A DNA stretch of 64,000 nucleotides from Owenia fusiformis (lineage: Eukaryota > Annelida > Polychaeta > Sabellida > Oweniidae). This document shows positions 13,670-61,397 of the stretch, one piece after another; position 1 is the first letter of the stretch; each line of letters opens with the position of its first letter. A model generated the notes under the pieces. That model had not been told where the DNA came from. It worked only from the letters and a program-made list of their open reading frames with translations, and made no database searches. A program made the translations under genes and the position numbers. Location of the stretch: the NCBI GenBank assembly GCA_903813345.2, contig CAIIXF020000001.1:28883915-28947914 (forward strand). Direction: 5' to 3'.

Positions 13670-16600
13670 TCAAAACACAATTTGCTCTTCATCCTGAACT
13701 CCTGATATATCATCCTGATATTCATCTGTCAGTTTACGCCACCAAGGCTGGTTCAATAGTTTTATTTCATTGATATGATTCTGTCTCGCTTTAGCAGCCA
13801 CAGGAGCTGACCTACTGGTATACAGTTCAATGTCTTTATCACTTGCATCCACTAGGCTGGGGGCATCTGGAAGATATAATATGTAAATACATGTGTACAT
13901 GTACATATGTTAACATCCATATTCATTTGTATTGGGTCATTTTTCACAAACAAAAACTTATTTGATCATATTCACTTGGAATCATTTATTTACGAAATAA
14001 ACATGTTCTCGGTTGATTTACATGATTCTGCTGAACTGTCCATAGTTGTATATATAGTTAATTTGATATACATGCGATGTATAATAATCCAATGGCCCAC
14101 GGAAATTATGACAACAGATTTCAGACAGATTTTTGCACGGACTTTCTGACCACAAAAACAAATGCATATTTAACAGTTTAAAGGACAACTGAAATAGCTT
14201 TTCTCAGCTTGCAGCTACAAAAATGTGGTTTTCTCCATTGTAAGCCCAACGCAGAGTTCTTGCGATAGCCATTATAAAATAAATGTTAGATAACTGCTAA
14301 CGCTCATAGATAACGAAATAAAAGTAACTGATCAATCAAATTGGCCCCCACGTGATTAGTAACGTCATATACAAAATATAGCTTTGGTTTATTGGTTCCT
14401 TAGTAATCACAATGTCACGGCAACCATAGGATTGTTGTGTAAACAAATAACAAAACATTTTGGCATTATGACGTCATGATCTAATGGACCAAAATGGGCC
14501 GCTGAGGGGCCAGTGAGAGATCACGTGGGGGCCAATAACGTCACAACCAATTCGAATATTGCTTATTAAGCAACTATAACGATCGTTAGAGTGAAATTAT
14601 TTTCACACTACTGATGAGAAAACATGTCCAAATACATTTATCAAAAAGTTTATTGATTCCTTTAGGTTTTAAAATACCATTTCATATCTGCTTTAATGTC
14701 AACTTTGATTACTACTCACAAAAAGCTAAAACTGTCTGAAATCTATTGCCTGATAACTTCCATGGCTTTTTCCCTGGATCCTCAGAAATTGAGCATTTTT
14801 GTGTTGCACAAATATGTACAGTATATAAGTATATGTTTTATGTATCGTATAACAAATAAATGTTCACTTACTCAGTAAAAGATCAGCATCTGTTTCAAGC
14901 CTTGCCAGCAAAGCTTCTCTCCGTTGTTCAAGTTTACGTATGGTCTTACACTGACTGATATGGCTCCGAATGGCATCCTGCACCTTGTTATGGAGTTCTT
15001 CCTGTTGGGGACGAGTCTTGGAGGGAAACTGAAAATATTTTAAATTACGGGGTACTTGCAACTTAATATTAATTTTAAAATTGTATTTCTACTGTGTATC
15101 TGAAGATCACCTTGAGACTGTTATGTGTATTTAGCATAAACTTGAAGAAATGTTTTTTGGTAAAAAGTTATTTTTATCAAGAATCTCCACAGTCCACACC
15201 TGTATTTTTTTACATTTGTACCCTCTACATCTATTCATTTGACCTGATGTTGTCAAAAAGTGAAATACTCAATATTATGTAATTTGATCAAGTATATAAA
15301 AGTGCTAAACATAATTTTATTTTTATTTATTTATTTGCCAACACTTTTATAACAGTGGCACATGGATTATTATCCAGTGCGGCTACATACAACCATACAG
15401 TATGAATAAAAATATACAGTCAATCAGTCATGTATAATTTCTTTAAAACAATGTTGCATATACTAAAAAAATAATCAAAGACATAAATCTCTGGGCTTGT
15501 ACAATTGGATTAAAAAGCGTTTTACAATGCTATCAAATGCGGCAAGACTCTTGCCCCCATTTTGAAAAAGTCTCATCAGCAAGCATAAAGGTCAATTTCT
15601 CAGCCAGATTCCCCTAAATGAAATCAGAAAATAAATCGGAGGGACATTGCTTACAAACAGTGTGGAAAAAGGATTCACGTTCTTCTTTAAAATGTTCACA
15701 CAGCAGCAACCTATGCTGTAAGTCTTCATGTACATTCAAACTACAAAGTTTACCTTTGCCATCACTTTTGCCCCATGCAGAGTAATTGGATTGAAGGCAA
15801 AAATTGTTGGTTCTTGCAAGAAATTTGAGTCTAGAACCATAAAAATCAAAGTCTTGTTTTAGATAAAATTTCTTGGTATGGATGGTATGGATATCTGAGA
15901 GTAATTCACAGTGAAATTACCATGGGCATTCATTAGATTGAAAGCCCATGGAAATTACCAAAGAAAAGAAGTCTATTGAGTATACTAGTGACTTGGTGAA
16001 GTACTAGCCATTTACAAATTGTCCATGATACATGTTCAAATACAATACCTTTCATATATTTAATTGATTTAATAATAGAGATCATTACATAAATGTTACA
16101 TCAATATCCCTTGAGGCAGTTGAAAAGATATTTAGCACTGAAATTTCACTAATGAATTCAAGTTGGCCTGTTAGCCAAGCCGTGATCGTCTAGTGGTTAG
16201 GACCCCACGTTGTGGCCGTGGTAACCCAGGTTCGAATCCTGGTCACGGCATGGCCAACATTTTTTTATATTCAAATCCTGGAGGCTATTTCATAAAAATT
16301 TAAAACTTTGAAATTGCGTTTATGATTTCAAGTTGGCCTGCTAGCCTAGCCGTGATCGTCTAGTGGTTAGGACCCCACGTTGTGGCCGTGGTAACCCAGG
16401 TTCGAATCCTGGTCACGGCATGGCCAACATTTTTTTATATTCAAATCCTGGAGGCTATTTCATAAAATTTAAAACTCTGATATTGCATTTATGATTTCAA
16501 GTTGGCCTGCTAGCCTAGCCGTGATCGTCTAGTGGTTAGGACCCCACGTTGTGGCCGTGGTAACCCAGGTTCGAATCCTGGTCACGGCATGGCCAACATT

Positions 16601-19600
16601 TTTTTATATTCAAATCCTGGAGGCTATTTCATAAAAATTTAAAACTCTGATATTGCATTTATGATTTCAAGTTGGCCTGATAGCTTAGCCGTGATCGTCT
16701 AGTGGTTAAGACGCCACATTGTGGCTGTGGAAATCCAGGTTTGAATCCTGGTCACGGCATTTCCAATATATTTTTTTCTTTTGTAATCCTCAAGGCTATT
16801 TCATAAGATTTAAAACACTGATATTGCATTTATGATTTCAAGTTGGCCTGATAGCTTAGCCATGATCGTCTAGTGGTTGAGACCCCACATTGTGGCCGTG
16901 GTATCCAGGTTCGAATTCCTGTCATGGCATGGCCAACATTTTGATTTCGTTTTTCTGTATTTGAATCACTGAGCCTATTTCATGACATTTTTTACACATA
17001 TTATTTCTGAAAAATCCATTCCAAAGTTAACAATTTATTTCGGAAATATCCTAGATTTTAATGTTCTTTGTGGAATAATGTTCCAGATTTTGTAACAATT
17101 TTTTTGCTTGTTATTTAATGTCTCAATCTAATTTGGTCTCATAATTCCTTTTCATGCTTTTTAATACAAGAAGTTCATTTCTATCCCTGAATTAGTCTTA
17201 ATAGGGAATTCATAGATTTTAAACTTTATTTTTTCATTTTTCAAATGTTCATATCCACATTCATTATCATGAAATATCTTAAAGTCAGGGTGCACTTTGA
17301 TGAAATTACATGACCATGTGCTATTTTCAGATAAACATAACTCATTCCACACATCATCTACATCTTTCATTCTTGCACAAAAGATGCATTAGTGTACCTA
17401 GACTATTAATTAAGGGGTGGATAATTCTTCAGAATTTTTAAAATAATAGAATATTCAGTGGTTTACTTTTCAAGATTGCAAAAAAAATTCAAAAGTGCAC
17501 TCTGGCCTTAATCTAAGCTTGATATATTATACGAAATTATATTTGGAATGGTAAAGAATAAAATCAGATATATTTGGGAAATAATGCTCTAGCCTAGCCA
17601 AATGCATAGGGAGTAAGTCACCCCCTCCCTCTTATAGTCTATATATATATATAATATAAGTGATATTCGATGGTTTCAAAAGTGATATTCAATGGTTTCA
17701 ACTTTAACTTTATTAATTCTGCTTGAGTCTCAGATTCCTCAAAATGATTTTTTCAAAATTTTCATTTTTTCTGATTGTTTAATGTTCGCTGGGATATAAT
17801 TTCCCATGGGATAAACCTATGGTTTTGAAGATAATATCAATTAAATCCACTCATATCATACATCAATATCCACATATGGACATAAATTATATTTTTTCAA
17901 AACCATAGGATAAAATTCAGAGTCCCTGGAATCAGACCTGGACCGTTCAATGGTAAAGTCAATTTTACCCCCAATATTATTCAATAGATTTCAATAGGAA
18001 GTAAGAGCCAGGAAACATTTAATTCATAAAATGGACATCCATGTTAATACTGACATCATGCTGAGGATGCAATTAACCAATTTGTTACATCTACAAATAA
18101 TAATTAATAATTTTGAATGTTTGGACATAATACCTGGGCTAATTGAAGAGTCAGAGATAGAGAAGAGGTGTCAAAAATAAAGCCAAAATGATAATTAACC
18201 AAATAACATGTTCTAAAACATCTAAAAAATATAATGTCTCCTAATAAGTTCCACATTTTATCAAATGGTGCAGTAATTAAAGAATTCATATGGAGATATG
18301 TGTCTACAATTCTATTTGTGTACATGGACCTCTGATGTGTACTTGCTTTGTCTTAATGTAAACCCACATTTAAAAACAACTTAAAATAAATATTTTGAAG
18401 GGAGATGGGAGGGGGCTTCAAAAACCCAGATCATGTTAATTTCTATCAATAAAAATATGAAATATCCCTAGTTCTTGAGAATATAAACCATTGAATATTA
18501 GGAAAGTAAAACTGAAAAGGAAATAAGATGAAAAGATTATGAAATAAGAATCTCTTATTTTACCTTTAATTTTCAAAGACAATATTATCATTAGAGTTTG
18601 GTGTCAGGATGCCACAATGTTGAAGTATAAAAACATCTAAGATGTAAAAAGGAAATAACTTTTCTTGAATCTGGTTACTTCCTTTTGTTTCTTTTATTAA
18701 CTGACAGAACTATCTAAGGTTCAATCAATGATAACAATCATAATCTAAGCTAATAACCCCAGATTGAACCTTAATTTATGACACTTTGTTTATCAGGTTA
18801 ATTAGAAACAATAAAGGAAATATTGGCTAAATATCCCAATAGGAAGCTATTGTTTCAAACAAGAAACAATATTTAGTAATCAAAGAAATTAACCATATAA
18901 ACACCAAAACAATCAAACACACAATACATCTTGATGCTAATTTTAATTACATGCGTTGGTAATTAAGGGGTTAATCTAGGTAATAAAAGCCCAAGAGTTG
19001 TTAAGTTGGTGACATTTTGAGAAGGTGTTTGGAGTGGAACAAAGGGTGTGGGTAATCCTGACTATAAACCCTGACCCTAACTCAGGGCCAACACTCTCAA
19101 ATTTAGATGAAACATGGAACTCACAAACATGCGGATTAGGAGTATGGCATCCCCAGTTGGTAAGTTTTTGTTTTCATCATCTCCATTGTTTGTGACATCT
19201 TCCTAATTATTATTTGTTTGTCATCAAACTGCTAATTAATGACATTATTGTTTGCAATGTAATGTGAATATAAAGATAGTCTCAGAAAGGGTACTGCATT
19301 CATTCAACAATGTATGGGACATTAACAAAGTGATTCTTTCAAGAATTTGATTTCGCATCTTTAAAAAGTTAAAACACAGTGGGACAGGATATTTTGTTCT
19401 ATGTAGGACATAAGCAAAGATGCCATGGGTTCACATACAAGACTTTTTTTCAGGTAAATTAAATTGCCACAAAACTTGATGCAAAGATTGACTGTGGTAG
19501 CTCAACTTAGATGGATAAAGACTCAACATATTTAAATCAATTAATTAATAAACTCTCACAGACTTCATTGACATGGAATTTAGATACGAATCTTTAACTT

Positions 19601-22600
19601 CAATTGTAACTATACAAATCATATGCCAATGCTCTAATTGCACAAAGGAAGCCATTTTGAAAATTTGATGTCATACAAAAGGAAGTCATGAAGTGAGATG
19701 ATTAATTAGAAGCCACTTATGTCTTCATGTATCTTACACATATAGGTATATAACATCAACACTTGGTACAATGCAATCATTGCACAATGGTTCCAAACAC
19801 AGAACATCTTTAATTTACAAGAGAACACTCAGGAAAGTTTTATGAATTTTTCTCAATTAGCTGGCTATTAAGGTACAGTAGTTATAGGACATCAGTCTTA
19901 GCCTAGGTAATCGATCATCTGCAAACTCAACACTATCATTTATGATAAGAATTGGTATTAGAGAAACAAGTATTTTGCTACAAGGCAACTATTGGCAAGT
20001 TGTTGGAAGGTTCTAATTTGCGAACATTTCAACAACGAGCCAAACTTTGAATTGTGACATGACAACACAGAACAATGAACATACCTGGATATGGTGAAGG
20101 ATCTGGTGAAGGTTTTACCAAATCTTTACATTTTTCAACTATTGGCAAGTTATAGGAGACACTTTACTATAGAACAGTGGATCCTGAACTTGTCAAATGT
20201 CGAATATGGTTTATCAACAAGTATTAAAAGTAGGTCGTTAAATTATTGAGCGTTGTGTGTAACCAGTATCTTCAAACTTTGTAATGGGATCCGGAATGGA
20301 ATAAGAGAATACATAATTTGGCAAGTTTCAGGAGACGCTTAAAAATTGAATAGCGGATTCTGAAGTTGTCAAATTTTGTGCTTTCTTAAATTAAACTAAC
20401 AATACAAGAAAAAGATGGTACAATTAATCCATGGATTGGGTCTGTTTTTAATCAAGGATAAAAAAGAAGGGAAATATATTTGTCCATCATAACCTTGCCA
20501 TAACTGGGACTTCTCACTGGAGTTTCACAAGTATTGGCAAGTGAAGGAGGCACTGTTTTAATACCAGTGTCCTATCTTTTGTCAAATTCTGTGAACTCAA
20601 TATAATCAACTTAACTCTTACATGGCTAGGGGTGTCAAATTGTGAATTACAACTATTGGCAAGTAAAGAAGGCACTGTTTAATGTCAGTGTCCTTTCTTT
20701 TGTCAAATTCTGTGAACTCAATATAATCAACTTAACAATTACATGACGAGAAGCTTCAAATGGAGTATTACAAGTATTGGCAAGTGAAGGAGGCACTGTT
20801 TCAATTTCAGTGTCCTTTCTTTTGTCAAATTCTGTGAACTCAATATAATCAACTTAACTCTTTCATGGCTAGGTGTTTCAAATGGAGTATTACAAGTATT
20901 GGCAAGTGAAGGAGGCACTGTTTCAATTTCAGTGTCCTTTCTTTTGTCAAATTCTGTGAACTCAATATAATCAACTTAACTCTTACATGGCTAAGAGCTT
21001 CAAATGGAGTATTACAAGTATTGGCAAGTGAAGGAGGCACTGTTTCAATTTCAGTGTCCTTTCTTTTGTCAAATTCTGTGAACTCAATATAATCAACTTA
21101 ACTCTTACATGGCTAAGAGCTTCAAATGGAGTATTACAAGTATTGGCAAGTGAAGGAGGCACTGTTTCAATATCAGTGTCCTTTCTTTTGTCAAATTCTG
21201 TGAACTCAATATAATCAACTTAACTCTTACATGGCTAGGAGCTTCAAATGGAGTATTACAAGTATTGGCAAGTGAAGGAGGCACTATTTCAATTTCAGTG
21301 TCCTTTCTTTTGTCAAATTTTGTGAACTCAATATAATCAACTTAACTCTTACATGGCTAGGAGCTTCAAATGGACTATTACAAGTATTGGCAAGTGAAGG
21401 AGGCACTGTTTCGATTTCAGTGTCCTTTCTTTTGTCAAATTTTGTGAACTCAATATAATCAACTTAACTCTTACATGGCTAGGAGCTTCAAATGGAGTAT
21501 TACAAGTATTGGCAAGTGAAGGAGGCACTGTTTCAATTTCAGTGTTCTTTCTTTTGTCAAATTCTGTGAACTCAATATAATCAACTTAAATCTTACATGG
21601 CTAGGAGCTTCAAATGGAGTATTACAAGTATTGGCAAGTGAAGGAGGCACTGTTTCAATTTCAGTGTTCTTTCTTTTGTCAAATTCTGTGAACTCAATAT
21701 AATCAACTTAAATCTTACATGGCTAGGAGCTTCAAATGGAGTATTACAAGTATTGGCAAGTGAAGGAGGCACTGTTTCAATTTCAGTGTCCTTTCTTTTG
21801 TCAAATTTTGTGAACTCAATATAACTAACTTATTTCTTACATGGCTAGGAGTTTCAAATGGAGTTTCACAAGTATTGGCAAGTGAAGGAGGCACTGTTTC
21901 AATTTCAGTGTCCTTTCTTTTGTCAAATTTTGTGAACTTGACAACATCAACCTAACTCTTACATGGCTAGGAGTTTCAAATGGAGTATTACAAGTATTGG
22001 CAAGTGAAGGAGGCACTGTTTCAATTTCAGTGTCCTTTCTTTTGTCAAATTCTGTGAACTCAGTATAATCAACTTAACTCTTACATGGCTAGGAGCTTCA
22101 AATGGAGTATTACAAGTATTGGTCCTTTCTTTTGTCAAATTCTGTGAACTCAATATAATCAACTTAACTCTTACATGGCTAAGAAGTTTCTAATGGAGTT
22201 TTACAAGTATTGGCAAGTGAAGGAGGCACTGTTTCAATTTCAGTGTCCTTTCTTTTGTCAAATTCTGTGAACTCAATGCAATCAACTTAACTCTTACATA
22301 GCAAGGTATTTCAAATGTAGTGTTACAAGTATTGGCAAGTGAAGGAGGCACTGTTTCGATTTCAGTGTCCTTTCTTTTGTCAAATTCTGTGAACTAAATA
22401 TAATCAACTTAACTCTTACATGGCTAGGGGTGTCAAATTGAGTATTACAAGATTTGGCAAGTGAAGGAGGCACTGTTTTTATAACAGTATCCTTTCTTTT
22501 GTCAAATTCTGTGAACTCAATATAATCAACTTAACTCTTACATGGCTAGGGGTGTCAAATTGAGAATTACAAGTATTGGCAAGTGAAGGAGGCACTGTTT

Positions 22601-25600
22601 TAATATCAGTGTCCTTTCTTTTGTCAAATTCTGTGAACTTGACAACATCAACCTAACTCTTACATGGCTAGGAGTTTCAAATGGAGTATTACAAGTATTG
22701 GCAAGTGAAGGAGGCACTGTTTCAAATTCAGTGTTCTTTCTTTTGTCAAATTCTGTGAAATCAACATAATCAACTTAATTGTTACATGGCTAGGAGTTTC
22801 AAATTGAGGATTACAAGTATTGGCAAGTGAAGGAGGCACTGTTTTAATATCAGTGTTCTTTCTTTTGTCAAATTCTGTGAACTCAACATAATCAACTTAA
22901 TTGTTACATGGCTAGGAGTTTCAAATTGAGGATTACAAGTATTGGCAAGTGAAGGAGGCACTGTTTTAATATCAGTGTCCTTTCTTTTGTCAAATTCTGT
23001 GAACTCAACATAATCAACTTAATTGTTACATGGCTAGGAGTTTCAAATTGAGGATTACAAGTATTGGCAAGTGATGGAGGCACTGTTTTAATATCAGTGT
23101 CCTTTCTTTTGTCAAATTCTGTGAACTCAATATAATCAACTTAATTCTTACATGGCAAGGTGTTTCAAATGGAGTATTACAAGTATTGGCAAGTGAAGGA
23201 GGCACTGTTTTTATATCAGTGTCCTTTCTTTTGTCAAATTCTGTGAACTCAACATAATCAACTTAATTCTTACATGACAAAGAGCTTCAAATGGAGTATT
23301 ACAAGTATTGGCAAGTGAAGGAGGCACTGTTTTAATATCAGTGTCCTTTCTTTTGTCAAATTCTGTGAACTCAACATAATCAACTTAACTCTTACATGGC
23401 TAGGAGTTTCAAATGGAGTATTACAAGTATTGGCAAGTGAAGGAGGCACTGTTTCAATTTCAGTGTTCTTTCTTTTGTCAAATTCTGTGAACTCAACATA
23501 ATCAACTTAATTGTTACATGGCTAGGGGTGTCAAATTGAGGATTACAAGTATTGGCAAGTGAAGGAGGCACTGTTTTAATATCACCGTCCTTTCTTTTGT
23601 CAAATTCTGTGAACTTGACAACATCAACTTAACTCTTACATGGCTAGGAGTTTCAAATGGAGAATTACAAGTATTGGCAAGTGAAGGAGGCACTGTTTTA
23701 ATATCAGTGTCCTTTCTTTTGTCAAATTCTGTGAACTCAATATAATCAACTTAACTCTTTCATGGCTAGGAGCTTCGAATGGAGTATTACAAGTATTGGC
23801 AAGTGAAGGAGGCACTGTTTCAATATCAGTGTCCTTTCTTTTGTCAAATTCTGTGAACTTGACAACATCAACCTAACTCTTACATGGCTAGGAGTTTCAA
23901 ATGGAGTATTACAAGTATTGGCAAGTGAAGGAGGCACTGTTTCAATTTCAGTGTTCTTTCTTTTGTCAAATTCTGTGAACTCAATATAATCAACTTAACT
24001 CTTACATGGCTAGGCGCTTCAAATGGAGTATTACAAGTATTTGCAAGTGAAGGAGGCACTGTTTCAATTTCAGTGTTCTTTCTTTTGTCAAATTCTGTGA
24101 ACTCAACATAATCAACTTAATTGTTACATGGCTAGGGGTGTCAAATGGAGTATTTCAAGTATTGGCAAGTGAAGGAGGCACTGTTTCAATTTCAGTGTCT
24201 TTTCTTTTGTTAAATTATGTGAACTCAATATATCAACTGAACTCTTACATGGCTAGGAGTTTCAAATGGAGTATAAAAAGTATTGGTGAAGGCACTATGT
24301 GTGAGTACTTATCAGCATAGGACACAATATACCACAAGTGTTTTAATTTTTTATGCTTACGATAATGCTCTTTTTGACAAAGGTGTCACTGAATCAACTT
24401 TCTATGATCCGTCTTTTTGAAATTCAATCTCAATATTTCTCCAACTGATATCATTTAGGGGCTTCAGTTTTTTCATTAAGATGCTGAACACAGCAGTTCA
24501 AGTTAAAGTGTATTCCTCCAACCTGTAAGAGAATTGGGATGAAGTTGATGAAAGACAAACATTGAAACAGCTGGACTTACTGGGTGATTTTCTCTCCAAT
24601 CTAAGATTTTTGCCTGTAACTCTACCCTCCTGTCATCAGTCAGACCTGGTGGTCTCTGCCATGGGGGAGGCTCACGTCTCTTCACTCTTAATCTCTCTAA
24701 CCATTTACGAACCTTTAGTAAACCAGAATTAAAGTTATCATTGCATATAAACATTCAAATTGCATGATATGTGATGTACATATATATTAGTATTGAAATA
24801 GTTTGGCATTTTTTCCAGCAGACTCTTGTGGTACATGCATATTATATGACTGTTTTTATTTCCTGAATTTTAACATTAATTTCTAAAGATATGCTGTTGA
24901 GAATAAATAAAATCTAAATATATATTGGTTCTGAGAAGGAGATGAATGAAAGTGAATGGTTTCAAGTACTATACTAATAATAATTAAATCTCAAAGTTTA
25001 TTTATAGACATTGAACCTGGGAAGGAGCAAGGTGTCAGAACAAACATTTCAATATTTACATGAAATATTGAGTTTCTAAAAACATCACACAAAACTTGCA
25101 AGTTCAAAACCCAAGATTTTCCCAAGAAGTTTTCAAATGGACCAATTCTATTATGCATAAAGACAAAACACCTATAGAAAGAATATATTGAGTATCAATA
25201 CAGACATGTATGGTGTCCTTTAATATATAACTGTATCCATAGAACCTCGCGTAATACTCATATAGGCAAACATTATGTCCCAATATTTGGCCTATGTCTA
25301 TAGACACTCAAATTGATGACTCCTTGAAATTCTGCTCTCATACAGTCTTAATGTCACAACATACATATGGAATACCTACCGCCCTTTGTATAATTATCAC
25401 AGATCTTAATCTCTTTGTGGCCCGTTTCCTGGCATTTGGACTACCTATGGACTTTCTTTGTCTGTACCCCCGGAATTGTGCCTGTATTTTTATTGCAGCT
25501 CTCTGTTGTTCTTTTTCAAGGTATTGGTCCATCTGACCTATACATACCACATGTGAATAATTCAACGCAAAGGTTCATGTTAAAAAAATCTGGAACAATA

Positions 25601-49009: not shown

Positions 49010-50815
49010 GCCTACCCATCCATCCATCCACCCATTCATCCATTCACCCATCCATCCACCCATCCATCCATCAATTCATCCATCCATCCACCCATTCACC
49101 CATCCATCCATCCACCTATTCACCCATCCATCCACCTATCCACCCATTCAACCATCCATCCATTCACCCATCCATCCACCTTTCTACCCATTCACCCATC
49201 CATCAATCCATCCACCAATTAACCCATCTATCCACCCATTCACCCATCCATCCATCCACCTATCCACCCATCCATCCATCCATCCATTCACCCATCCATC
49301 CATCCATCCATCCACCCATTCACCCATCCATCCATCCATCTACCCATTCACCCATCCATCCATCCACCTATCCACCCATTCAACCATCCATCCATTCACC
49401 CATCCATCCATCCATTCACCCATCCATCCATCCATCCACCCATTCACCCATCCATCCATCCATCCATCCATCCATCCATCTACCCATTTAACCATCAATC
49501 CACCCGTTCACCCATCCATCCATCCATTCACCCATCCATCCATCCACCCATCCATCCATTCACCCATCCATCCATCCACCCATTCACCCATCCATCCACC
49601 CCTCCATCCATCCATCCATCAATCTATCTATCCATCCATCTATCCACCCTTCACCCATCCATCCACCCATCCATCCATCCACCCATTCAACCATCTATCC
49701 TTCCACCCGTTCACCCATCCATCCATCCATCCATCCATCCACCCCTCCATCCATCCATCCATCAATCCATCCACCCATTCACCCATCCATCCATCCATCC
49801 ATCTACCCATTTTACCATCAATCCACCCGTTCACCCATCCATCCATCCATTCACCCATCCATCCATCCACCCATTCACCCATCCATCCACCCCTCCATCC
49901 ATCCATCCATCCATCCACCCATTCACCCATCCATCCATCCATCCATCTACCCATTTAACCATCAATCCACCCGTTCACCCATCCATCCACCCACCAATCC
50001 ATCCATTCACCCATCCATCCATCCATTCACCCATCCATCCAGCCATTCATCCACCCATTCACCCATCCATCCAACTACCCATTCACCCATCCAGCCATCC
50101 ACCCATCCATCCATCCATCCACCAATTCACCCATCCATCCACCAATTCACCCATCCATCCATCTACCCATCTACCTATTCACCCATCCATCCACCTATCC
50201 ACCCGTTCAACCATCCATCCATTCACCCATCCACCCACCCATCCATCCATCCATTTACCCATTCAACCATCCATCCATCCACCTGTACACCCATCCATCC
50301 ATCCACCCACATACCCATCCATCCATCCACCAATTCACCCATCCATCCATCCATCTACCCATCTACCTATTCACCCATCCATCCACCTATCCACCCGTTC
50401 AACCATCCATCCATTCACCCATCCACCCACCCATCCATCCATCCATTTACCCATTCAACCATCCATCCATCCAGCCATCCAACCATCCATCCACCCATTT
50501 ACTCATTCATCCATCCACCCATCCACCCATCTGTCCAGCCATCCATCCACCCATCCATCCATCCATCCATCCACCTGTCCACCCATTCACCCATTCAACC
50601 ATCCATTTACCCATTCGCCCATCCATCCTATCATCCACCCATCCATCCATCGATCCATCCACCCATCCATCCATCCATGCATCCATCCATCCATGCATCC
50701 ATCCATCCATCCTATCATCCACCTATCCATCCACCCATTCATCCACCCATCCATGCATCCATCCATCCATGCATCCATCCTTCCTATCATCCATCCTATC
50801 ATCCATCAGGTTTCC
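49010..50815. repeat. 1.8-kb CATC-based simple repeat
   Basis: CCATCCATCCATCCA tetranucleotides are interrupted regularly by CCCATTCAC blocks, giving a loose 20-30-bp higher-order pattern. A 341-codon plus frame (Ile-His-Pro-Ser and Phe-Thr-His-Pro) and minus frames (Met-Asp-Gly-Trp) arise only because repeat blocks keep a frame. The segment at about 50160-50270 recurs closely at 50345-50460, a local duplication. It lies between the claudin-like and transporter genes. Confidence 0.92.
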
Positions 50816-52157
50816 AGCACTTTTACAATGTTAGCCTACATATCCATGGTGCTTATTTACTATTGTATATTTAGAGTATGGAGTGAGCTATTGTAATGGC
50901 CCGTCTGTTCTTCTGTCCGTCTGTCTGTCTATCCTTCTGTCATCACATTGATAGTTACTCGTAATTTGAAATCCATGACAATTGAAATGGTTTCCTTTTT
51001 AAGACATGTCTATCTAAAACGTTCAATTATCCCATAAGTTGCGTCTCAAAAGCTTGCCTTGATTTGTTTCAAAATGGCAGCCATTTTTATTGTGGAAAAA
51101 TCAGGTTTTCAACACCTTTTTGGTCAGAACTCAACAGGTATTCCATCAATTTGCATGAAATTGTACAGGTACCTTAATTTTTCATGTTATCAATAATATA
51201 TACAATTACAGCAAAATATGTTGGAAAGATTTAAAATGGCTACCATTTTTATTGCGGAGAATACCTAAATGTATAAGTTATCAATAATGTCTAGAAGTTT
51301 CTGCAAAATATGAAGCAGCTAAGTATATGGGAGGGGGCAGGCACCTGAGCCCTCCCAATGTCCACCACTACAATTTGTAGCCCAACACTTCAAAATAAAT
51401 GGGTAACTGCCTTGCTAAGTTATGTCATTACAAACTAACCTTTTTTAAAACCACTATAGATAGACTAAGAAGCTTAGAAGCCTCTTTTGCCATCTAATAT
51501 GCTATGGAAATGTGGTTATTGCAAATGTTACCTCATATTTGAACATAAAGGGCTAATAAAAGTCTCGATCATTTAGTATATTTTATTTCAATGCTAATAT
51601 TTATTATCATATGCTCTGCAATGTTTTCTGTACAACTACATTAAAATATATAGGGTGGGCCAAAAATTGTATTTTTTTTATTTTGTTCACCCGGTCTGTA
51701 CATGTTCTTTCTGATAAAAAAATAATATACATGTATAATAAACCATTTGGAAAATATATATGAATATACCAACGAAATGTGTCTCCTTCAATTAAATCAT
51801 TTCATATCATTTTACGGTTTAAGCCTGAAATGATATCATTATAAGATATCATTCTTAGAGTGTTCATTTTGATTATGATGCGTTTTGTCTCTGATTTAGT
51901 TTCTTGTATCTTGAAGCCCTTTAGAAGTCACTCAATGGAATCCTTGCTAGCTGTCAAATAACATTCCTGCAATTTGATTAGTATATATATAGTATATATA
52001 TTAATTTGCATTTATTCAAATTTTTCTATACAGTGATGTATGCCAATGGGAAAACACCATAAATGGTTACAAAATACAACAAGAAAAAGAACACCAGTAC
52101 ACCAGTCATAATAGTAAAAAAACATGTATGCCAATATTCAACTGAATTATGTGTAAA
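50816..52157. other. Intergenic region downstream of the nucleoside transporter
   Basis: No coding exon was recognised. A lone mariner-type end (TATAGGGTGGGCCAAAAATT) lies near 51650. A minus-strand AATAAA (plus TTTATT) at 52011-52016 lies about 140 bases beyond the proposed transporter stop codon and could be its polyadenylation signal. Confidence 0.4.
52011..52016 (-). terminator. Candidate polyadenylation signal of the transporter gene
   Basis: On the minus strand the word is AATAAA, 142 bases beyond the TAA at 52158. It supports the gene ending in the last recognised exon, but such a word is common in AT-rich DNA. Confidence 0.3.
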
Positions 52158-55100
52158 TTATTCACCTGCAATGCAAGCTGTTGTAAAGCAAGCAAGATTC
52201 CCTGCAACCATGGCCCGTATAGCAACAGATGCTAAATCTCCTGTAAAGAGAAATCATAAATCAGCATTCAACACAGGTTAAAAGTTTCATTTTGTCCATT
52301 TTGTAAACAATACTATTGTATCTCTTAGGCTACGTTCACACCAATGGCGCTTTGATGGCGCTTTAAAGCGGCTTGTAAAGCGGCACCAAAGAGTAACAAA
52401 GCTTGATTAAAGCGTCGGGGTCGTAATAGGTAGTAGAAAAGCTCGGAGTAAAGCGGGATATTCGGCAAGAGCGCAAAAATAAAAACTGTTCAAGCTACGT
52501 TCGCACCAACGGCGCTTTGATGGCGCTTTAAAGCGGCTTGTAAAGCGGCACCAAAGCGTAACAAAGCTTGATTAAAGCGTCTGGGTCGTAAAGGGTCGTA
52601 GAAAGGCTCGGAGTAAAGCGGGATAATCGGCAAGAGCGCCAAAAAATTTTAAACAGTTTAAAAATTTTGGGCGCTCAGTTACGAATTGATAGAAGCGCCG
52701 AGAGCGTATCAAAGCTTAACAAACCGTAACAAAGCTCAGCAAAACCTTGACCCAAAGCGTATGAAAGCTTTACAGAGCTTGGTTCAAAGCAGGGACCCCA
52801 GTCTCTTCACTGTCTGTTACCACTTGACACGCTTCGTTAAGATGTCTCAAGATTTGCTACGATCTGGCATGAAGATCTGACACGAGGTCAGACGCTTTAA
52901 TCAATATCTGACACTCTTTGTTACACTTTCATGAAGGACTCTCAAGCTTTCCAACAAATTGAGACGCTTTAATCAAGGATTGAAACGCTTTGCTAGGCTT
53001 TGTTACGCTTGACAAGTTTCCACACGCTATATCACGCCGTGCGACAAACATCATGTCCATCTGCAATTTCTGGATCTTGTTGTTCTGCCATCGTGTTCTC
53101 AAGTCAAAGATGCAATGGTTTTATGGATCTACTGCATCTTTATATAGTCATTGGATCAAAAGCGGCATGAAATCGGCGATCTCGACATTTTCCAATGCGT
53201 GACAGAGCTTAACAGAACGTAACAATGCACAACAGAGCTTGGCAATCGTATCAGAGCCTGATTTAAAGCGTCATTGTCGCATCAAAGCGTAATAATGCTT
53301 ATCAAAGCTTATCAAAGCGTAAAAAAAGCCTGAGGAACCTATCAAAGCTATGTTAAGCTTTCCTACGCTTTGGATCAAGCTTTTCTGAGCTTTGTTACGG
53401 TTTGTTAAGCTTTGATACGCTCTCGGCGCTTTAGTCAATTCGTAACAGAGCACCCAAAATTTTTAAACAGTTTAAATTTTTTTGGCGCTCTTGCCGAATA
53501 TCCCGCTTTACTTCGAGCTTTTCTACGACCTATTACGACCCCGACGCTTTAATCAAGCTTTGTTATGCATTGGTGTCGCTTTACAAGCCGCTTTAAAGCG
53601 CCATCAAAGCGCCGTTGGTATGAACAAAAATAACAAAAATGACGGCGCTTTGCTCGCCGATTTAAAGCGTGGCATTCGCCGTTGGTGTGAACATAGCTTT
53701 AGAGAAACCTCTACACCCCCAATCTGCACTCTGAAATCATGTTACTGTATAGTGCATTAAGAGTATGGTACCATATGGTACTATTAGAGTATGGTGCAGT
53801 ATAGTGTACATGGAATACCATACAGTACTGTTGGATATTGGCTGTGTATTTTTCTATAAATTCAACCAATTTAAGTGAATTCAATATTGATTTCACTTAC
53901 GTTTCCTAGATGGCGCTAGTGCAGTTACACTCCCTAGAACAATACCAACATCACTGAAATTTGCAAATCCGCAACAAGCATAAGTTGCTATCACCTCTGA
54001 TCGAATCTACAATAAATATTACTTTACTAATTAGGCATAATAATGACACATTATGGCTAAAATGAATAAATTTTAAGTGAACTGGTACACTTTTAAGGAA
54101 TTCAGATTGAAAATATTTTAATAAATAACTACAATCCCAGTGTAAGACCATTATTATCAAAATATGCATGTTTTATATACAGTGAAACCTATAAAGTGGA
54201 ACACCTCTAGAGGTAGAACACCTCTGTAATTAGTGTAACGCTTTCCAGAGTCTCAAGACCTCCTGGCTATATGTTAAATGAACCTCCTTCAGTGCAACAG
54301 CTCTCAAGTGGAACACATTTTAGAAGTACCAAAGGTGTTCCTCTTTGACAGGTTTTACTGTAATTTGTTCGTCTATACTCACAGACATTGCAGGAAGGAT
54401 TCCAGCTTTCCTGTTGTTAATGAGCTCTCCAAGCTTTTCATAAGCTACAATATCACTTAGAAATATTTTTGAACCAATCAGTTCTCCAACTTTCAAGCAG
54501 TCTTTGAGGTCCACACCCATCAAAAGTGCTAAGGGCCAGAATAAGTAAGAACAGATCAGCTGGAGAATAGAATATACTAGTGTGAACATATTTAGAAATG
54601 CCTATAAAATTTTGTCTATTACTTTTGAATCGCCCCTCGTATATCAGAGGACGGGTATATAAATTTATTTAAAGGGTCTTGTATTGGATACATATGGGTC
54701 ATGATTAATGAAATGATGGTATGACTTTTTATAAAAGATAAAATCAGCTTATTCAGGGCATAGAGGAAAATACTATCCCAAGACATTCATTTAATAAGTA
54801 TGTTCTTTTGTTGAAATTAATTTTTCCGAAAGAATTGATATTTCTTAAGAGAAATCTGGATTCTCCGAATGTTCACATTTTCTCATTATGACTGAAGTGA
54901 AGATGAAGCAAAAGCAAAGCAAAAACATGCTACTTACCTGGAAGCTAAGATCAGGGTAGCTCACACGTTCTCCCAGCCAGCTGAGGGTTGCATTAATGAA
55001 GGTTAACATTGCCACGAATGCTATCAAGTTGACTACAATACTTGCCACCACTGGAACAGAATCACTTGCACCAGATGCAAAGGCATCAATTGAATTCCTA

Positions 55101-58100
55101 GCTGGACTATAGCAAACAAAGACAGTATTTAGCCCACATATATGTATACATATATACTGAAGGTCACTTCGTGTAAATATTGGACCAAGTTACGATTTGT
55201 GAAAAGTATCTATACATGTAATGTGTATATTAGCAACAATTTATCTTACACTGGCTTATTATATCAAATGAACAAAAATGATGAGAAAATAGAGGTTAAG
55301 GTCCAGCATGCCATTGACCAAATATGACATTGAGTTGGTGTAAATACTGTACGTAAGGTAACTTAGTTTACAGAGCCTGATGATTGTAAAATCCCCAAAA
55401 TTTAATAGCCACAAAATTGTGATTTATGGCGTTTGTTTTTACTGGAATAATCAAATCCTTTATTATATTCACCCATGATTTTACTTCTGCTTTGATAACA
55501 TAATCTGCTAATGTGCATGGCTGAAATCATGATGACTTACGATTTTTCAAACTTGATATCCTTGACCTCAGCAATAGATGGCTTTTCTGTCTCTGGGTAG
55601 AGGAGACGTGCTATGGCTAGGGCTGCAGGCGCTGACATCAGGCTGGCTGCAACAAGATGACTAGACTCAACCTGTACATAAGAGGTAAACCATGTTATGA
55701 CTGAACTCTCGAAAACCTGTACATAAGAGGTAAGCCATGTTATGACTGAACTCTCGAACAGTATTTAGAGTGAGCGCTATCCCAAACAATGCGAAGACTG
55801 AATTATGTTTAAATAATGCTGAAATTGAGAGTCTGATTGTAACCTGTCCCTTCCCTGAATAATGTTTCGATTAATAAATAAACAATTACTGTTGATTAAA
55901 TCAATTAATTATAAGTAATTTATTCATTTGTTTATCATAAATAATCTGCTGAGTGATTCCTATCATGATTAATATATAGACTAAGCCTTATCTTGAATGA
56001 TGTATAAATTGAATCCTATCCCGAATGATGTATCAACTGAAACCTATCTCGAATTATGTATAAACTGAATCCTATCCTGAATGGTGTATAAACTGAACTC
56101 TATCCCGAATGATGTATAAACTGAATCCTAACCCAAATGATGTATAAACTGAACCCTATCCTGAATGGTGTATAAACTGAACCCTATCCCGAATGATGTT
56201 TAAACTGAACCCTATCCCAAATGATGCATAAACTGAACCCTATCCCGAATGATGTATAAACTGAACCCTATCTCGAATGATGTATAAACTGAACCCTATC
56301 CCAAATGATGCATAAACTGAACCCTATCCTGAATGATGTATTAACTGAATCCTATCCTGAATGGTGTATAAACTGAACCCTATCCTGAATTATGTATAAA
56401 CTGAACTCTATCCCGAATGATGTATAAACTGAATCCTATCCAGAATGATGCATAAACTGAACCCTATCCTGAATGATGCATGAACTGAACCCTATCCTGA
56501 ATGGTGTATAAACTGAACCCTATCCTTGATGATGCATAAACTGAACCCTATCCCGAATGATGTATAAACTGAACTCTATCCCGAATGATGTATAAACTGA
56601 ACCCTATCCCGAATTATGTCTAAACTGAACTCTATCCCGAATGATGTATAAACTGAATCCTATCCAGAATGATGCATAAACTGAACCCTATCCTGAATGA
56701 TGCATGAACTGAACCCTATGCCGAATGATGTATAAACTGAACCCTATCCCGAATGATGTATAAACTGAACCCTATCCCAACTGATGCATAAACTGAACTC
56801 TATCCCAAATGATTTATAAACTGAACCCTATCCCGAATGATGTTTAAACTGAACCCTATCCCAAATGATGCATAAACTGAACCCTATCCCAAATGATGTA
56901 TAAACTGAATCCTATCCCGAATGGTGTATAAACTGAACCCTATCCCAAATGATGTATAAACTGAACCCTATCCCAAATGATGTATAAACTGAATCCTATC
57001 CCGAATGGTGTATAAACTGAACCCTATCCCAAACAATGTATAAATTGAACCCTACCCCAAATGATGTATAGACAGCAAGAAGGCCAAAATCCACTGTTGA
57101 GAAGCCACTGGTCATAGCAGAGTGGAGCTCAGATATTGTCATCTTGGCAAGAAAACCAGAAACTGTGAGTAATGATGTTGTCTACAAGCAACAAAAAAAC
57201 ATTTAGAATCTTGACTAATTGCATTTTTTATATTACTTTAACTGTATACCAAAAGTACTGTATATACCTGAATTAGTGAAGTAATATGACTTCATCCATT
57301 TTAGGGATACTAATACTATTAGTTCAACTCACTGGCCCAGTAAAGACATTTGCAGCTGCTATGAAGGACTCAGTTGGTATGGTACCCATGATGACCTGCA
57401 TCATCCAGCCAAACTTGCGGATCCCCACCTGTATGACCCCCCAGTGGTACAATAATGCATTGATGGCAGCAAAGAATGTGATAACTGGCATGACCTGTAA
57501 GGTAAAGTAAGCAAATTATAATAATTTAGGTAGGGTTATTCCTGGATTTTCATGCATTGATATGCTTATTGAATTTTCTCTTGATGGCCCTGGGCTATAA
57601 ACTGAAAGGCCTTACCTGTACATTTTTCTTTTTATAAAGGCTCAATGGCCTATTTTTGAAAAACCATGATAAATGCTCTCCCAGCATTTATTTGAAAATA
57701 TTCATGCTATGGATTGAAATATTTAGCACACATTTTATTCTACAAAAAGTATTTTATAGCCAGCTCCAGGTGCTATTTTCCTCAAAATAAAACTCCACAT
57801 GAGTTGCTTTTAAAATATTTTTAATAAAAAGTCAATAACAAATGAGTGGAACATAAAGAGAATTTTTTTTCTTTATTCTGGTGCAACTACTTAACTCTAA
57901 ATACATTTCTCACATTCCGATTCGTTTGCTATATGCAATTTTAATTCTCTCGAAAGTACCTATGTTCTATACCATACCATACCATACCTGGAATACAAAC
58001 ATATGCTCTAAGTAGGCATCACCAAACACAAATTTTGATCCAAAGTCTGCATAATTAAGGAACATTGTGATCTGGTCCCCTAGCCATTGAAAGGCTATCA

Positions 58101-61100
58101 GTCCATATGACCAACGTAAAATTAAGAGGCCGAATATGAATTGTAACACCATTCCTGATAGCACAAGACTCCAGTTCACCTACAACCATGTTCAATATGT
58201 GGTCAATATGTGTATTCATTTGAGATCATATTTTGGAAATTAAATTATGATGTATAATGCTGTGCGAAATGGATGGATTGATATTCATATACTGTACGCC
58301 CGGTATTATTTGCGAGCTTTAATTTCGCGAATTTTGCGAAAACACGGTTTCGCGGCTATTAAATTTCGCGAAAATGGAGGGGATCCCCCTTAATCTTAAT
58401 GTGCAAGAGCTTCTTAAAAGACCGAACTGTCGATTCGGAGATTTTGAAGTGTTTAGCAGCGCTTGAATTGCCATTCAGTAATGCGTGCCGGGCTATGTTT
58501 GCCCTTTCTGCATCGTTATACACCTTATATGTCCCGCGTTTGGAATTGGACTTCATGTTATCTTTTGCAATTTGCACTTCATTTGCAATGATGTCATCGA
58601 TATCATTATTTGGCCTACTGGTGGTACTGGGCCGAATCAGCCAATGTAAAATGGACATTACTGAAGTCCTGAAGATCGTGGATATCCAATTATCGCCCAA
58701 TAACACTAGACGAAACGTTTACACAAAACGAAATGCATCAGAGCCCTGGCAATTGGCAATTTCGCGACGATAATTTTTCGCGATTTTAACACGAAAAGCG
58801 AAAAGCGCAAAAGTTAATCGCACGCGAATAATACCGGGCGTACAGTAGATATTTTATGAAGACTCTTTAGGGCTCTTTCAGACCTATAATGTCGGTGCTC
58901 AGAAGTTTTTGAATTCATCAAGGAAAACGATTAACATACAGTATAATCTTTAGATATTACCTTAACTGCATTTTTTGATCCCACAAATGCTAGCAATAAG
59001 AAGGCCAATATGCCTCCTACAGACACCAGCTTATAAGGTTTCCTAGAGGCATCAATGCCAATGAACACTATGATAGCTATTGCTACTATAACATACCATA
59101 CCCTAAAAAGAAATGAAATCAGGGTTACCTTATTACACTCATGGCAGTTGTTAAATCAAATGTGAATCAAACATGCGCAAAGGTATTAAATATAAAATGT
59201 TAATCTGCCTGACTTATCTTTATTTATCTTATACGAGGCTTGTTTCTGGTTTTAATTGGTTGGATGAATATCAAAATTTTAAATGGTTTTGAGTAAGTAC
59301 TGTTTTCTCAGGTGGAGATTTTAGGTGAATATCAAAACATTTTGAGTAGGGTTGTCCCAGGTATATTATCATTCTTTTTAACTAACATGAAATTTAACAA
59401 AGGGATGTTCATGTACACAGAGATATGATATGATTGATTACCAAAGATCAAAGAAGAACATCATCATATCATTTCTTGATCCCTAGAATCTAATATACAG
59501 AATGATAATTTTTATTATCATTTATATTAATTTGACGTCTGTGTAGTTTTACATACAGTATAAAAGTTGTAAATGCCTGTATTATATAAACTAATAACCT
59601 ATATTATATGTCATACTGAGTGACACAAAAATTCCACCCACTAATTTTGGAATTTCTCAATAATTAAGGAATCTTCATAATTTTCATAATTATAATTGGT
59701 ATGCTTTCATAGCATCAAATACTTGGAAATTAAGAGATATCTCATTTTCCGCGGAGGCATGGCCTGACACAAAATCACTCAAAAATATAAATTAGAAAAT
59801 CTGTCTTTCTTAAAATTTACATAATAAGTGAATCAGTTTATCAAATTAAATGGATAGATATGACATATTATTGATAATGTTTAGAAAATTGTATTTTTGG
59901 AAATTTTTTGACGATTTCACCGAGAGCATGCCTGGACGGAAAATGTGATATCTCTAATTCTGAAGATGGAGAGTGGCATTTTTGTGTCAACCTGTTTGTA
60001 TGAATTATATTGTTGTTTCTAATGTTTACTGAATTGAACCTTCCACATCAATATTTAAATGATAACTACATTTCCCTTTGAAGTAGTTAAGAAAAGAAGG
60101 ACAAATAGAATTCTTGTTGAGGCACCTGAGAAGTAAATACAACATGCACAATTTGCAATTTTTTAGCCACATTTTCTGTGATAACTATGAAGCACATGCT
60201 TTTCATTTAGAGACATTTCATATATCTGTACATTAATTTCCATTGATAGATTGTTCTATTGAAGTTTATCTAGTGGTGTCAAAACTAGAATGGGTAAGGC
60301 ACTTGAGTGGCTGTCAAACAAATAATATATGAACCCTAGGATGGGCTTGTCACTTTATCAGTGCATGGTAAACAGCTCATTTCTTGCAATTAAGTATAGT
60401 ATAGGAATAGTACTTTCTTCCAAGGGACAGTTTTTCTCTATGAAGCAGAGATATATGTAATAGAGCCTAGTTAGAATATGTAATAGAGCCTAGTTAGAAT
60501 ATGTAATAGAGCCTAGTTAGAATAAAATTATAATTAAATTAACCCTTCAGGAACCCCATCATGCATATCATGTCATATATTTTCTGAACTACCAAATGCA
60601 GATAAAACAAATGGTGTTTTGATTCATGCTTTGTATGGCAGAGAATCATTTGTTTCATTAATAGCTATAGATTGTGAAAACTATAACTGATTACTTATTA
60701 CATGTGGTTGATAAATCAGTTGAACCTATTTGAAAATGCATATATAATCATTTGTAAATTTTTATGATGTAAACATTGAAATTGATAACATCAGAAATGA
60801 AACTTGGCAAACTAATATGTTTTGAGTACAGGATTAAAATTATTTATATGATATTTTTCCTCTTATTATTCTACGTCATGATGAAATATAAAACTCCTTA
60901 TTTCAAATATACAAAAATGTATGATACACTTACCAGCGTAATTTATTCCATTTTGTTTCTACAAAGTGAATTGGTTTTTCTAGGACCTTAAGAATTTTGG
61001 GTCCGAGATATTTTTTGATGAGATTGTATATTACAAAGAATATAACAATGGCTGTTATAACGATCAATGGTATGGCACCCTGAATGTTCCAGTACATTGC

Positions 61101-61397
61101 ATATACCAGATATGCTCCATATAGCAGTAGCCCCAGTACAAATGCAGCATATTTGATGGACTTTTTATGTGCCATATACATGGTGCTCATTTTGTTTTGA
61201 ATTTTAGCAACAAAATGATTCTTGTCCGTATCTTCTTCTTCTTCTTCTTCTTCTTCATGCTGTACGTTTGGGAGAACATCTTGATGATGTGACTTTTCTT
61301 GAATGTTAAATGTTTCCATATTGGCTCCATCTGATACAGTATTGACATATTCAGGTATATCTGCCCCGTGATTATTGATTCCTATATTTGATACCAT
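52158..61397 (-). CDS. SLC28: Concentrative nucleoside transporter-like protein (SLC28/CNT) with altered substrate site
   Basis: CNTs are plasma-membrane Na+- or H+-coupled nucleoside importers. Exons 5' to 3': 61397-60934, 59102-58961, 58179-57988, 57494-57333, 57181-57056, 55671-55541, 55106-54938, 54559-54383, 54006-53901, 52240-52158. All phases agree. The product is about 582 aa if translation runs through the GTGAA after CIAG to TAA at 52158; a further small exon cannot be excluded (human CNTs 649-691, with longer tails). The cytosolic N-terminus holds an acidic Glu run at about 49-56. Landmarks are RPYKL-like KPYKLVSVGG, VNWSLVLSG, SGFSTVDFGLLAVYTSFG, SASLMSAP-like AASLMSAPAAL, MGVDLKD and IATYACCGFAN. 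Positions that bind nucleoside in known CNTs differ: the HP1 motif GQTE(S/A)PL reads GPTTSLL (319-325), NEFVAY reads SDIVAY (497-502), and NFSS/NIGS reads NFSD (537-540). Framework residues are retained, so it looks like a functional but diverged carrier. Confidence 0.93.
52324..53702. mobile_element. 1.38-kb palindromic element rich in AAAGC words
   Basis: The left end CTTAGGCTACGTTCACACCA and right end TGGTGTGAACATAGCTTTAG are inverted. Further inside, GGCGCTTTGATGGCGCTTTA with AAGCGGCTTGTAAAGCGGCA (twice, at 52350 and 52510) faces its complement at 53575-53615. The whole element is a mosaic of AAAGCG, AAAGCTT and GGCGCTTT words in one orientation at left and the opposite at right, plus a GGGTCGTAA and CGGCAAGAGCGC duplication. 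GC content is well above its surroundings. No frame is recognised. It lies in the last intron of the transporter gene. Confidence 0.75.
54180..54360. mobile_element. 181-bp TA-flanked MITE (CAGTGAAACCT ends)
   Basis: The ends CAGTGAAACCT and AGGTTTTACTG are inverted and flanked by TA (54178-54179 and 54361-54362), as for pogo/Tigger-type MITEs. The interior is palindromic: GTGGAACACCTCTAGAGGTA and CAAGTGGAACACATTTTAGA. It is the best-preserved of four copies in this window. It stops 20 bases from the splice donor of the transporter exon 54559-54383. Confidence 0.75.
55672..55770. repeat. Two-copy direct duplication of about 47 bp
   Basis: CCTGTACATAAGAGGTAAAC followed by CATGTTATGACTGAACTCTC is immediately repeated with one change. 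The first copy includes the AG acceptor of the transporter exon 55671-55541, so the duplicated copy carries a second, similar acceptor-like sequence upstream. Confidence 0.7.
55960..57055. repeat. ~38 copies of a 28-bp unit abutting a transporter 5' splice site
   Basis: The unit is ACTGAACCCTATCCCGAATG followed by ATGTATAA, with small variations. On the minus strand it reads ATACATCATTCGGGATAGGG. The adjacent exon (57181-57056) ends TATACATCATTTGGG and its donor continues GTAGGGTTCA, so exon end plus donor equal one repeat unit with ATAGGG changed to GTAGGG. The array runs from the intron start almost to the next exon. Confidence 0.85.
58292..58845 (-). mobile_element. 554-bp TA-flanked element encoding only an HTH domain
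   Basis: The ends CTGTACGCCCGGTATTATT and AATAATACCGGGCGTACAG are inverted, with TA on both sides (58290-58291 and 58846-58847), as in Tc1/mariner/pogo-type elements. A minus-strand frame at 58706-58359 of about 115 codons has a Lys/Arg-rich stretch and then a helix-turn-helix resembling pogo/CENP-B N-terminal domains (ERANIARHALLNGNSSAAKH, then FKIS-ESTVRSFKKL). The DDE catalytic domain is absent. The subterminal parts are rich in TTTCGCG/CGCGAAA. It lies in intron 2 of the transporter gene, transcribed in the same direction. Confidence 0.75.
59103..60933. other. Transporter intron 1, little structure
   Basis: This 1.8-kb intron holds a 23-bp tandem repeat (ATGTAATAGAGCCTAGTTAG, about three units, 60450-60525). 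Around 59610-59990 lies an inverted pair: TGACACAAAAATTCCACCCA near 59622 and GAGTGGCATTTTTGTGTCA near 59972, probably the ends of a small element of about 370 bp. No additional exon is recognised. Confidence 0.5.
60450..60525. repeat. 23-bp tandem repeat
   Basis: ATGTAATAGAGCCTAGTTAG plus AAT is repeated about three times with almost no change. Confidence 0.85.

Follow-up and report, generated by a model that had tools for sequence, protein, structure and literature searches.

A CNT/SLC28-family gene of Owenia fusiformis with a rebuilt nucleoside pocket and conserved sodium side chains

The stretch of 64,000 nucleotides analysed here (the window; Owenia fusiformis, assembly GCA_903813345.2, contig CAIIXF020000001.1, positions 28,883,915 to 28,947,914 of the forward strand) carries on its minus strand a CNT/SLC28 gene, referred to as the window gene, in which five of the eight residues published as nucleoside contacts of human CNT3 (hCNT3, SLC28A3) are replaced and every one of the seven side chains published or proposed as sodium ligands is retained. 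With about even confidence we read its product as a Na+-coupled elevator carrier whose substrate would be something other than ordinary nucleosides. The gene is no lone oddity, being one of 20 CNT gene models of this genome, 16 of which keep five contacts or fewer. Contacts and ligands are named by their hCNT3 residues (Q341, T342 and so on), and other residue numbers are those of the window protein. Published work is cited by PMC number.

The substrate pocket and the sodium sites

Splicing of the minus strand from 61397 to 52158, as in the gene model of the original prediction, gives a protein of 583 amino acids in which GPTTSLL, SDIVAY and NFSD start at residues 319, 497 and 537, as had been reported. 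The alignment with hCNT3 and the Vibrio cholerae carrier vcCNT (PDB 3tij, 4pb1) is free of gaps from hairpin 1 (HP1) to hairpin 2 (HP2), where the numbering of the window protein is that of hCNT3 minus 21, and it bears out the claimed equivalence of these motifs to hCNT3 Q341/T342/E343, E519 and N565/S568 (P320 = Q341, T321 = T342, T322 = E343, D498 = E519, N537 = N565 and D540 = S568).

On the nucleobase side of the pocket, in HP1 and transmembrane helix 7 (TM7), the contacts Q341, T342, E343 and V375 read Pro, Thr, Thr and Leu (one of four kept), and on the side of the ribose and the aromatic contact E519, N565, S568 and F563 read Asp, Asn, Asp and Phe (two of four kept). From the eight contacts listed for hCNT3 (PMC7440666), T342, F563 and N565 are retained and Q341P, E343T, V375L, E519D and S568D differ, in agreement with the earlier statement that most substrate-binding positions are replaced and that the Thr and the Asn stay; vcCNT, unlike the window gene, has all eight as in hCNT3. 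The CNT motif (G/A)XKX3NEFVA(Y/M/F) (PMC5465479) is not matched, the window gene reading GSKIFLSDIVAY, with SDI for NEF (SDIVAY for NEFVAY). The replacements listed in the original prediction are all present, but the list is incomplete, as it overlooked TM7, where A372D, G373F and S374G occupy the hinge next to V375L. Residues A372, G373 and S374 are protected by uridine in cysteine scanning (PMC5465479), and vcCNT G187 and V188, the counterparts of S374 and V375, are assigned to a nucleobase-side pocket (PMC4139061). Among the 20 genes position 372 is Ala in 17, Ser in two and Asp in one, and position 373 is Gly in 19 and Phe in one, the Asp and the Phe both being those of the window gene.

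The side-chain ligands of the first sodium site (Na1), N336 and T370, are kept as N315 and T349, and the residues proposed for a second site (Na2), S369, S396, C561, C602 and T605, read Ser, Ser, Cys, Cys and Thr, which completes the set of seven. None of the 19 other CNT genes equals hCNT3 at every one of these five positions. The Na1 side chains, the five Na2 residues, T342, F563 and N565 are shared with hCNT3 and bovine CNT3 (PDB 6ksw, 8tzd); with vcCNT (37.1% core identity) the window protein shares the N/S-type Na1 side chains.

Three Pfam domains exceed their cut-off in the window protein (Nucleos_tra2_N 76.3, Gate 36.5 and Nucleos_tra2_C 248.8 bits). Its best relative of solved structure is recorded as a sodium/nucleoside cotransporter, which we take to be bovine CNT3 (E 3.5e-152), followed by human CNT3. 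Core identity to hCNT3 is 51.6%; of the 19 other genes L009-L011 exceed this figure, L012 and L013 equal it and the remaining 14 fall below it. The gene groups with vertebrate CNT3 and the other CNTs of the genome against the bacterial CNTs, and it shares intron positions with other CNTs. Judged from these similarities it is a member of SLC28/CNT by descent, and we do not class it as a nucleoside transporter in function.

Exons and splicing of the window gene

The revised gene comprises 11 exons and ten introns, all GT-AG, and encodes 587 amino acids with no inner stop; the exons had already been described as open, and the frame is indeed intact. The start codon is a predicted one. The features are as follows (a slash in sequences below marks a splice junction).

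60934..61397, minus: exon 1, start codon, acidic N-terminus and first transmembrane helices (open frame, GTAAGT donor)
58961..59102, minus: exon 2 (splicing)
57988..58179, minus: exon 3, part of the CNT N-terminal domain (splicing, domain match)
57333..57494, minus: exon 4, ending in HP1 ...NVFTGP, with N315 (= N336, Na1) and P320 (= Q341) (alignment; junction position in all 19 other models)
57056..57181, minus: exon 5, with T321 and T322 (= T342, E343), S348 (= S369), T349 (= T370) and D351, F352, G353, L354 (= A372, G373, S374, V375) (alignment)
55541..55671, minus: exon 6, with MSAPAALA and S375 (= S396) (splicing)
54938..55106, minus: exon 7 (splicing)
54383..54559, minus: exon 8, HP2 with SDIVAY, D498 (= E519) (alignment)
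53901..54006, minus: exon 9, TM10 with C533, F535, N537 and D540 (= C561, F563, N565, S568) (alignment)
52241..53900, unstranded: intron 9, phase 1 (position shared with L025 and L028, absent from the other 17 models)
52166..52240, minus: exon 10, TM11 with C574 and T577 (= C602, T605) (GT donor at this place in every one of the 20 genes)
51947..51966, minus: probable exon 11, (G)MLFDS and stop, absent from the earlier model (phase-1 acceptor; similar candidates in 16 of 19 other genes)

The end of the gene had been placed at 52158. This stop very probably falls inside intron 10, and would hence not be the true end, because a GT donor lies at the same place in all 20 CNT genes, in the codon (GGT or AGT) after the conserved ...CIA or its equivalent; the junction reads CAG/GT in 14 of the 20, and CAG/GTGAAT in the window gene. 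A phase-1 acceptor at 51967 leads into (G)MLFDS and a stop (51966-51947), and the product is probably one of 587 amino acids ending at 51947. Short last-exon candidates of the form G-[MILV]-[LFIMV], a pattern chosen after the window gene's own candidate was known, lie downstream of 16 of the 19 other genes (GLLYTE in L025, for example), some of them weak, and none was found downstream of L009, L015 or L028.

Three introns contain repeats or elements. In intron 5 a minisatellite of 38 units of 28 bp (55995-57070) has as its first unit the last 15 nt of exon 5 and the splice donor, and only one of the 38 units has GT at the place of the donor; the array looks like an expansion of the boundary between exon 5 and its intron. 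Intron 2 holds an element with terminal inverted repeats (58291-58846), whose open frame on the minus strand (58359-58718) looks like that of a helix-turn-helix protein, and intron 9 a large near-palindromic element (52334-53625) with arms of 245 nt at 92%.

A subfamily with L025 and L028

Trees were built without the binding-site columns, with human and bovine CNT3 as the sole eukaryotic sequences beyond this genome. In them the window gene falls into one clade with L025 and L028 (support 100/99), and it still groups with L025 (100/99) after removal of the long-branched L028. The three genes alone have a phase-1 intron at window residue 557, absent from the other 17 models, and a Thr at the position of L347 (3 of 20 genes), followed by Val. 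The Pro at Q341 is common to the window gene and L025 and has the same codon, CCA, in both. Conservation of GPTTSLL in relatives had been proposed as the sign of a distinct subfamily; the whole string is not conserved, but the looser P-T-x-S-x-x-T-V is common to the window gene and L025, and T-x-S-x-x-T-V to all three genes. L025 resembles the window gene in this Pro, the intron and the clade; unlike it, L025 keeps E343 and S568 and has E519S. L028, of the same clade and with the same intron, differs in E343G, E519G and S568G and in its very long branch. A frameshift in the first spliced alignment of L025 was gone under the family profile.

A tree that puts the window gene next to the two vertebrate CNT3 sequences is disfavoured by the approximately unbiased (AU) test (p 0.0155), as is one that puts it with L009-L011 (p 0.0017), the groups for this test having been defined after the tree was known. 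Descent of all 20 genes from a time after the split from vertebrate CNT3 is moderately supported (85/88, and 88/88 in the tree without L028).

The CNT genes of the genome

Two genome searches gave at least 21 CNT loci, all counts being lower bounds: the window gene, 19 other gene models and the C-terminal fragment L027, which is excluded from every count, as is a weak match on the small contig C289. Six of the 19 other models begin well inside the protein (L014, L015, L016, L024, L026 and L028). The genes fall into the following contact classes, the letters standing in the order Q341, T342, E343, V375, F563, E519, N565 and S568.

Near-canonical class: L009 QSEVFENS, L010 MTEVFENA, L011 MTEGFENS
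QVEVFESA class: L012, L013, L018
S/G-V-E class with S568D: L014, L017, L020, L021, L023
G-M/L-D class: L015, L019, L022, L024
Single types: L016; L026
Window group: PTTLFDND (window gene), PTEVFSNS (L025), TTGGMGSG (L028)

Seven of the eight contacts are kept in L009, six in L010, L011 and L025, and at most five in the remaining 16 genes. N336 is kept in all 20 and T370 in 19 (Ser in L028); across the family, it is the substrate site that varies and the Na1 side chains that stay. Variation among the 20 genes is greater at the proposed Na2 residues than at those side chains. The altered pockets of the divergent classes sit in maintained genes, because the ratio of non-synonymous to synonymous substitution rates (dN/dS) is 0.06-0.16 for L012/L013, L017/L020, L019/L024, L017/L021 and L014/L017; a sixth pair, L010/L011, is unreliable (dS 3.6), and all six together span 0.05-0.16.

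The Asp at S568 recurs in the five-gene clade of L014, L017, L020, L021 and L023, where it apparently arose independently of D540 of the window gene. Three introns present in most paralogues, at 155, 203 and 363, are missing from the L010 model; two of them, at 203 and 363, are missing from that of L011 too, a pattern that points to intron loss in both. The model of L018 has one stop, inside a modelled insertion.

In bacteria, the best 80 of 582 confirmed stretches by similarity to hCNT3 have Gln at Q341 in 78, Glu at E343 in 79, Gly at G373 in 79, Glu at E519 in 80 and Ser at S568 in 80; bacterial variety is understated by these figures, since the 80 nearest to hCNT3 were used and the search patterns favour C561, F563 and N565.

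What the window gene may transport

The product is an intact membrane carrier of the SLC28/CNT family, which by homology would be a Na+-driven trimer that works by the elevator mechanism. The nucleobase side of its pocket is rebuilt through the exchange of the HP1 Gln and Glu for Pro and Thr and of the TM7 contact Val for Leu, with the Ala-Gly of the hinge turned to Asp-Phe beside it, and the ribose side through Glu to Asp and Ser to Asp, with F563, N565 and the cation side-chain ligands unchanged. Such a protein could be expected to go on transporting, to use Na+ as the driver and to carry a cargo other than an ordinary nucleoside. In hCNT3, E519A, E519Q and S568P abolish uridine binding and E343A weakens it (PMC7440666), and a Cys at E343, E519, S568 or F563 inactivates the carrier, both Glu mutants also being less abundant at the cell surface (PMC5465479). 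From these four Cys-sensitive sites the window gene alters three and keeps F563. An ordinary nucleoside is an unlikely main cargo, with a real minority chance, because mutations at E343, E519 and S568 harm hCNT3 and the window gene alters these residues; Na+-driven transport of another small solute is favoured because the cation side chains are fully kept. The original prediction had left open a changed substrate or a changed ion coupling; the former is the most economical, and the latter less favoured with all seven cation side chains in place, although two Na1 backbone-ligand positions differ (V339T, I371V) and E343 and E519 are known to affect cation coupling. The loss of the HP1 Glu and the gain of Asp at A372 and S568 lead us to guess, weakly, at a small solute that is positively charged or rich in hydroxyl groups. 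A precedent for a CNT-like carrier with a link to something other than a nucleoside, in this case dipicolinate, is SpoVV of Bacillus subtilis (Gate family, spore membrane), which has remote CNT homology only and is likened here to the window protein by description (PMC5629000).

The changes lean towards the pocket. Among 80 positions that the bacterial set and the human, bovine and Vibrio CNTs all conserve, the window gene is changed at 5 of 8 published contacts against 14 of 72 other positions (one-sided Fisher p 0.016), and with a wider pocket set at 6 of 11 against 13 of 69 (p 0.018). This lean is not special to the window gene, since L016, L024, L026 and L028 likewise give p <0.05.

Several points weigh against a non-nucleoside carrier. 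The p values above are modest, refer to a single gene and are uncorrected across 20 genes, and without G373, which was added post hoc, the wider set gives p 0.052. The bulky Asp-Phe of the hinge could impair the transport cycle. Position Q341 varies naturally, being Met in L010, L011 and L026, and N565, kept here, is dispensable in hCNT3, where N565A still binds uridine (PMC7440666). Against L025, dN/dS is 0.13 at dS 3.6, where synonymous sites are saturated and the figure is unusable. Other points speak for a transporter that still carries nucleosides, with changed selectivity, with low affinity or for modified nucleosides, a reading that we consider unlikely but far from negligible: T342, F563 and N565 are kept, the position of E519 is still acidic (E519D is conservative), the sister gene L025 retains six of the eight contacts, and the bacterial L104 (Planctomycetales bacterium, in the best 80 of 582), with GMTTAP in HP1, has Thr at E343 and is normal on its ribose side. 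CNTs can also stay active after a single change at Q341 or E343, a Cys at Q341 being functional in hCNT3 and the equivalent E343 mutants of hCNT1 and NupC retaining low activity (PMC5465479). Set against this reading, five of eight contacts and three hinge residues are altered jointly, S568P and E519A/Q lose uridine binding in hCNT3 as described above, and S568D would put a charge at the ribose site.

A lesser chance, and a small one, is that the protein is uncoupled, either a Na+ leak or a non-transporting sensor. E343 and E519 affect cation coupling, and E343Q of hCNT3 reportedly (Slugoski, in 2009) gave uncoupled Na+ currents; A372D and G373F are unique among the 20 genes. The seven of seven cation side-chain ligands, with an Na2 set equal to that of hCNT3 in this gene alone, favour an ion site that is in use, and would be compatible with a leak as well.

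It is very unlikely that the gene is relaxed or decaying and open by chance. A372D and G373F at otherwise nearly invariant positions would fit decay, and dN/dS is saturated for this gene (against L009, L010 and L012 dS is beyond computation). On the other side stand the 11 exons with their ten GT-AG introns and a frame of 583 codons in which about 63 x d stops are expected after d neutral changes per site and none is seen, the chance of a stop-free frame at d = 0.05 being 0.043. The branch length is ordinary, not elongated (terminal branch 0.40; root-to-tip 1.01, the 7th shortest among the 20 genes), and the changes lean to the pocket with the cation ligands kept. An error of gene model or assembly that masks a canonical GQTE pocket, suggested by the similarity of the junction GGGCCA/GTGAGT to GGNCAG/GTGAGT, is hardly credible, as the GP/TT junction coincides with an intron position of every one of the 19 other models, the Pro codon CCA recurs in L025, contact changes occur also in exons 8 and 9, and tblastn with the exon-4 and exon-5 peptides of L009 and the exon-5 peptides of L010 and L025 found no alternative HP1 exon in the window (remaining matches weak, E 0.22 or worse); nor did any junction turn up that restores GQTE.

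Other features of the window

Five tRNA-His(GTG) genes stand in tandem as part of a 170-bp repeat array at 16179-16929, and an array of 122/366-bp units, with about 10 copies of the longer unit, at 20518-24286. A long CCAT-type simple repeat (49014-50807) is nearly free of G on the plus strand over most of its length, which accounts for the GC skew of -0.55 at 48-52 kb.

Implications

SLC28 proteins are described as nucleoside carriers, one to three in insects and three in mammals (PMC9467524), against 20 CNT gene models in this one genome. The literature search, with subscription papers mostly outside its reach, found no paper describing an expanded SLC28 family whose pockets are altered. Tentatively, and with somewhat less than even confidence, we propose that SLC28 radiated in this lineage, over a Na+ site that stayed conserved, into six or seven classes of pocket, which would be Na+-driven importers of several non-nucleoside solutes, the window gene representing a subfamily that lost nucleoside recognition entirely. 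If the substrates do differ, the CNT fold would offer a natural series for the change of cargo in an elevator carrier with its ion site kept, and it would be a mistake to name such genes nucleoside transporters on the strength of homology alone.

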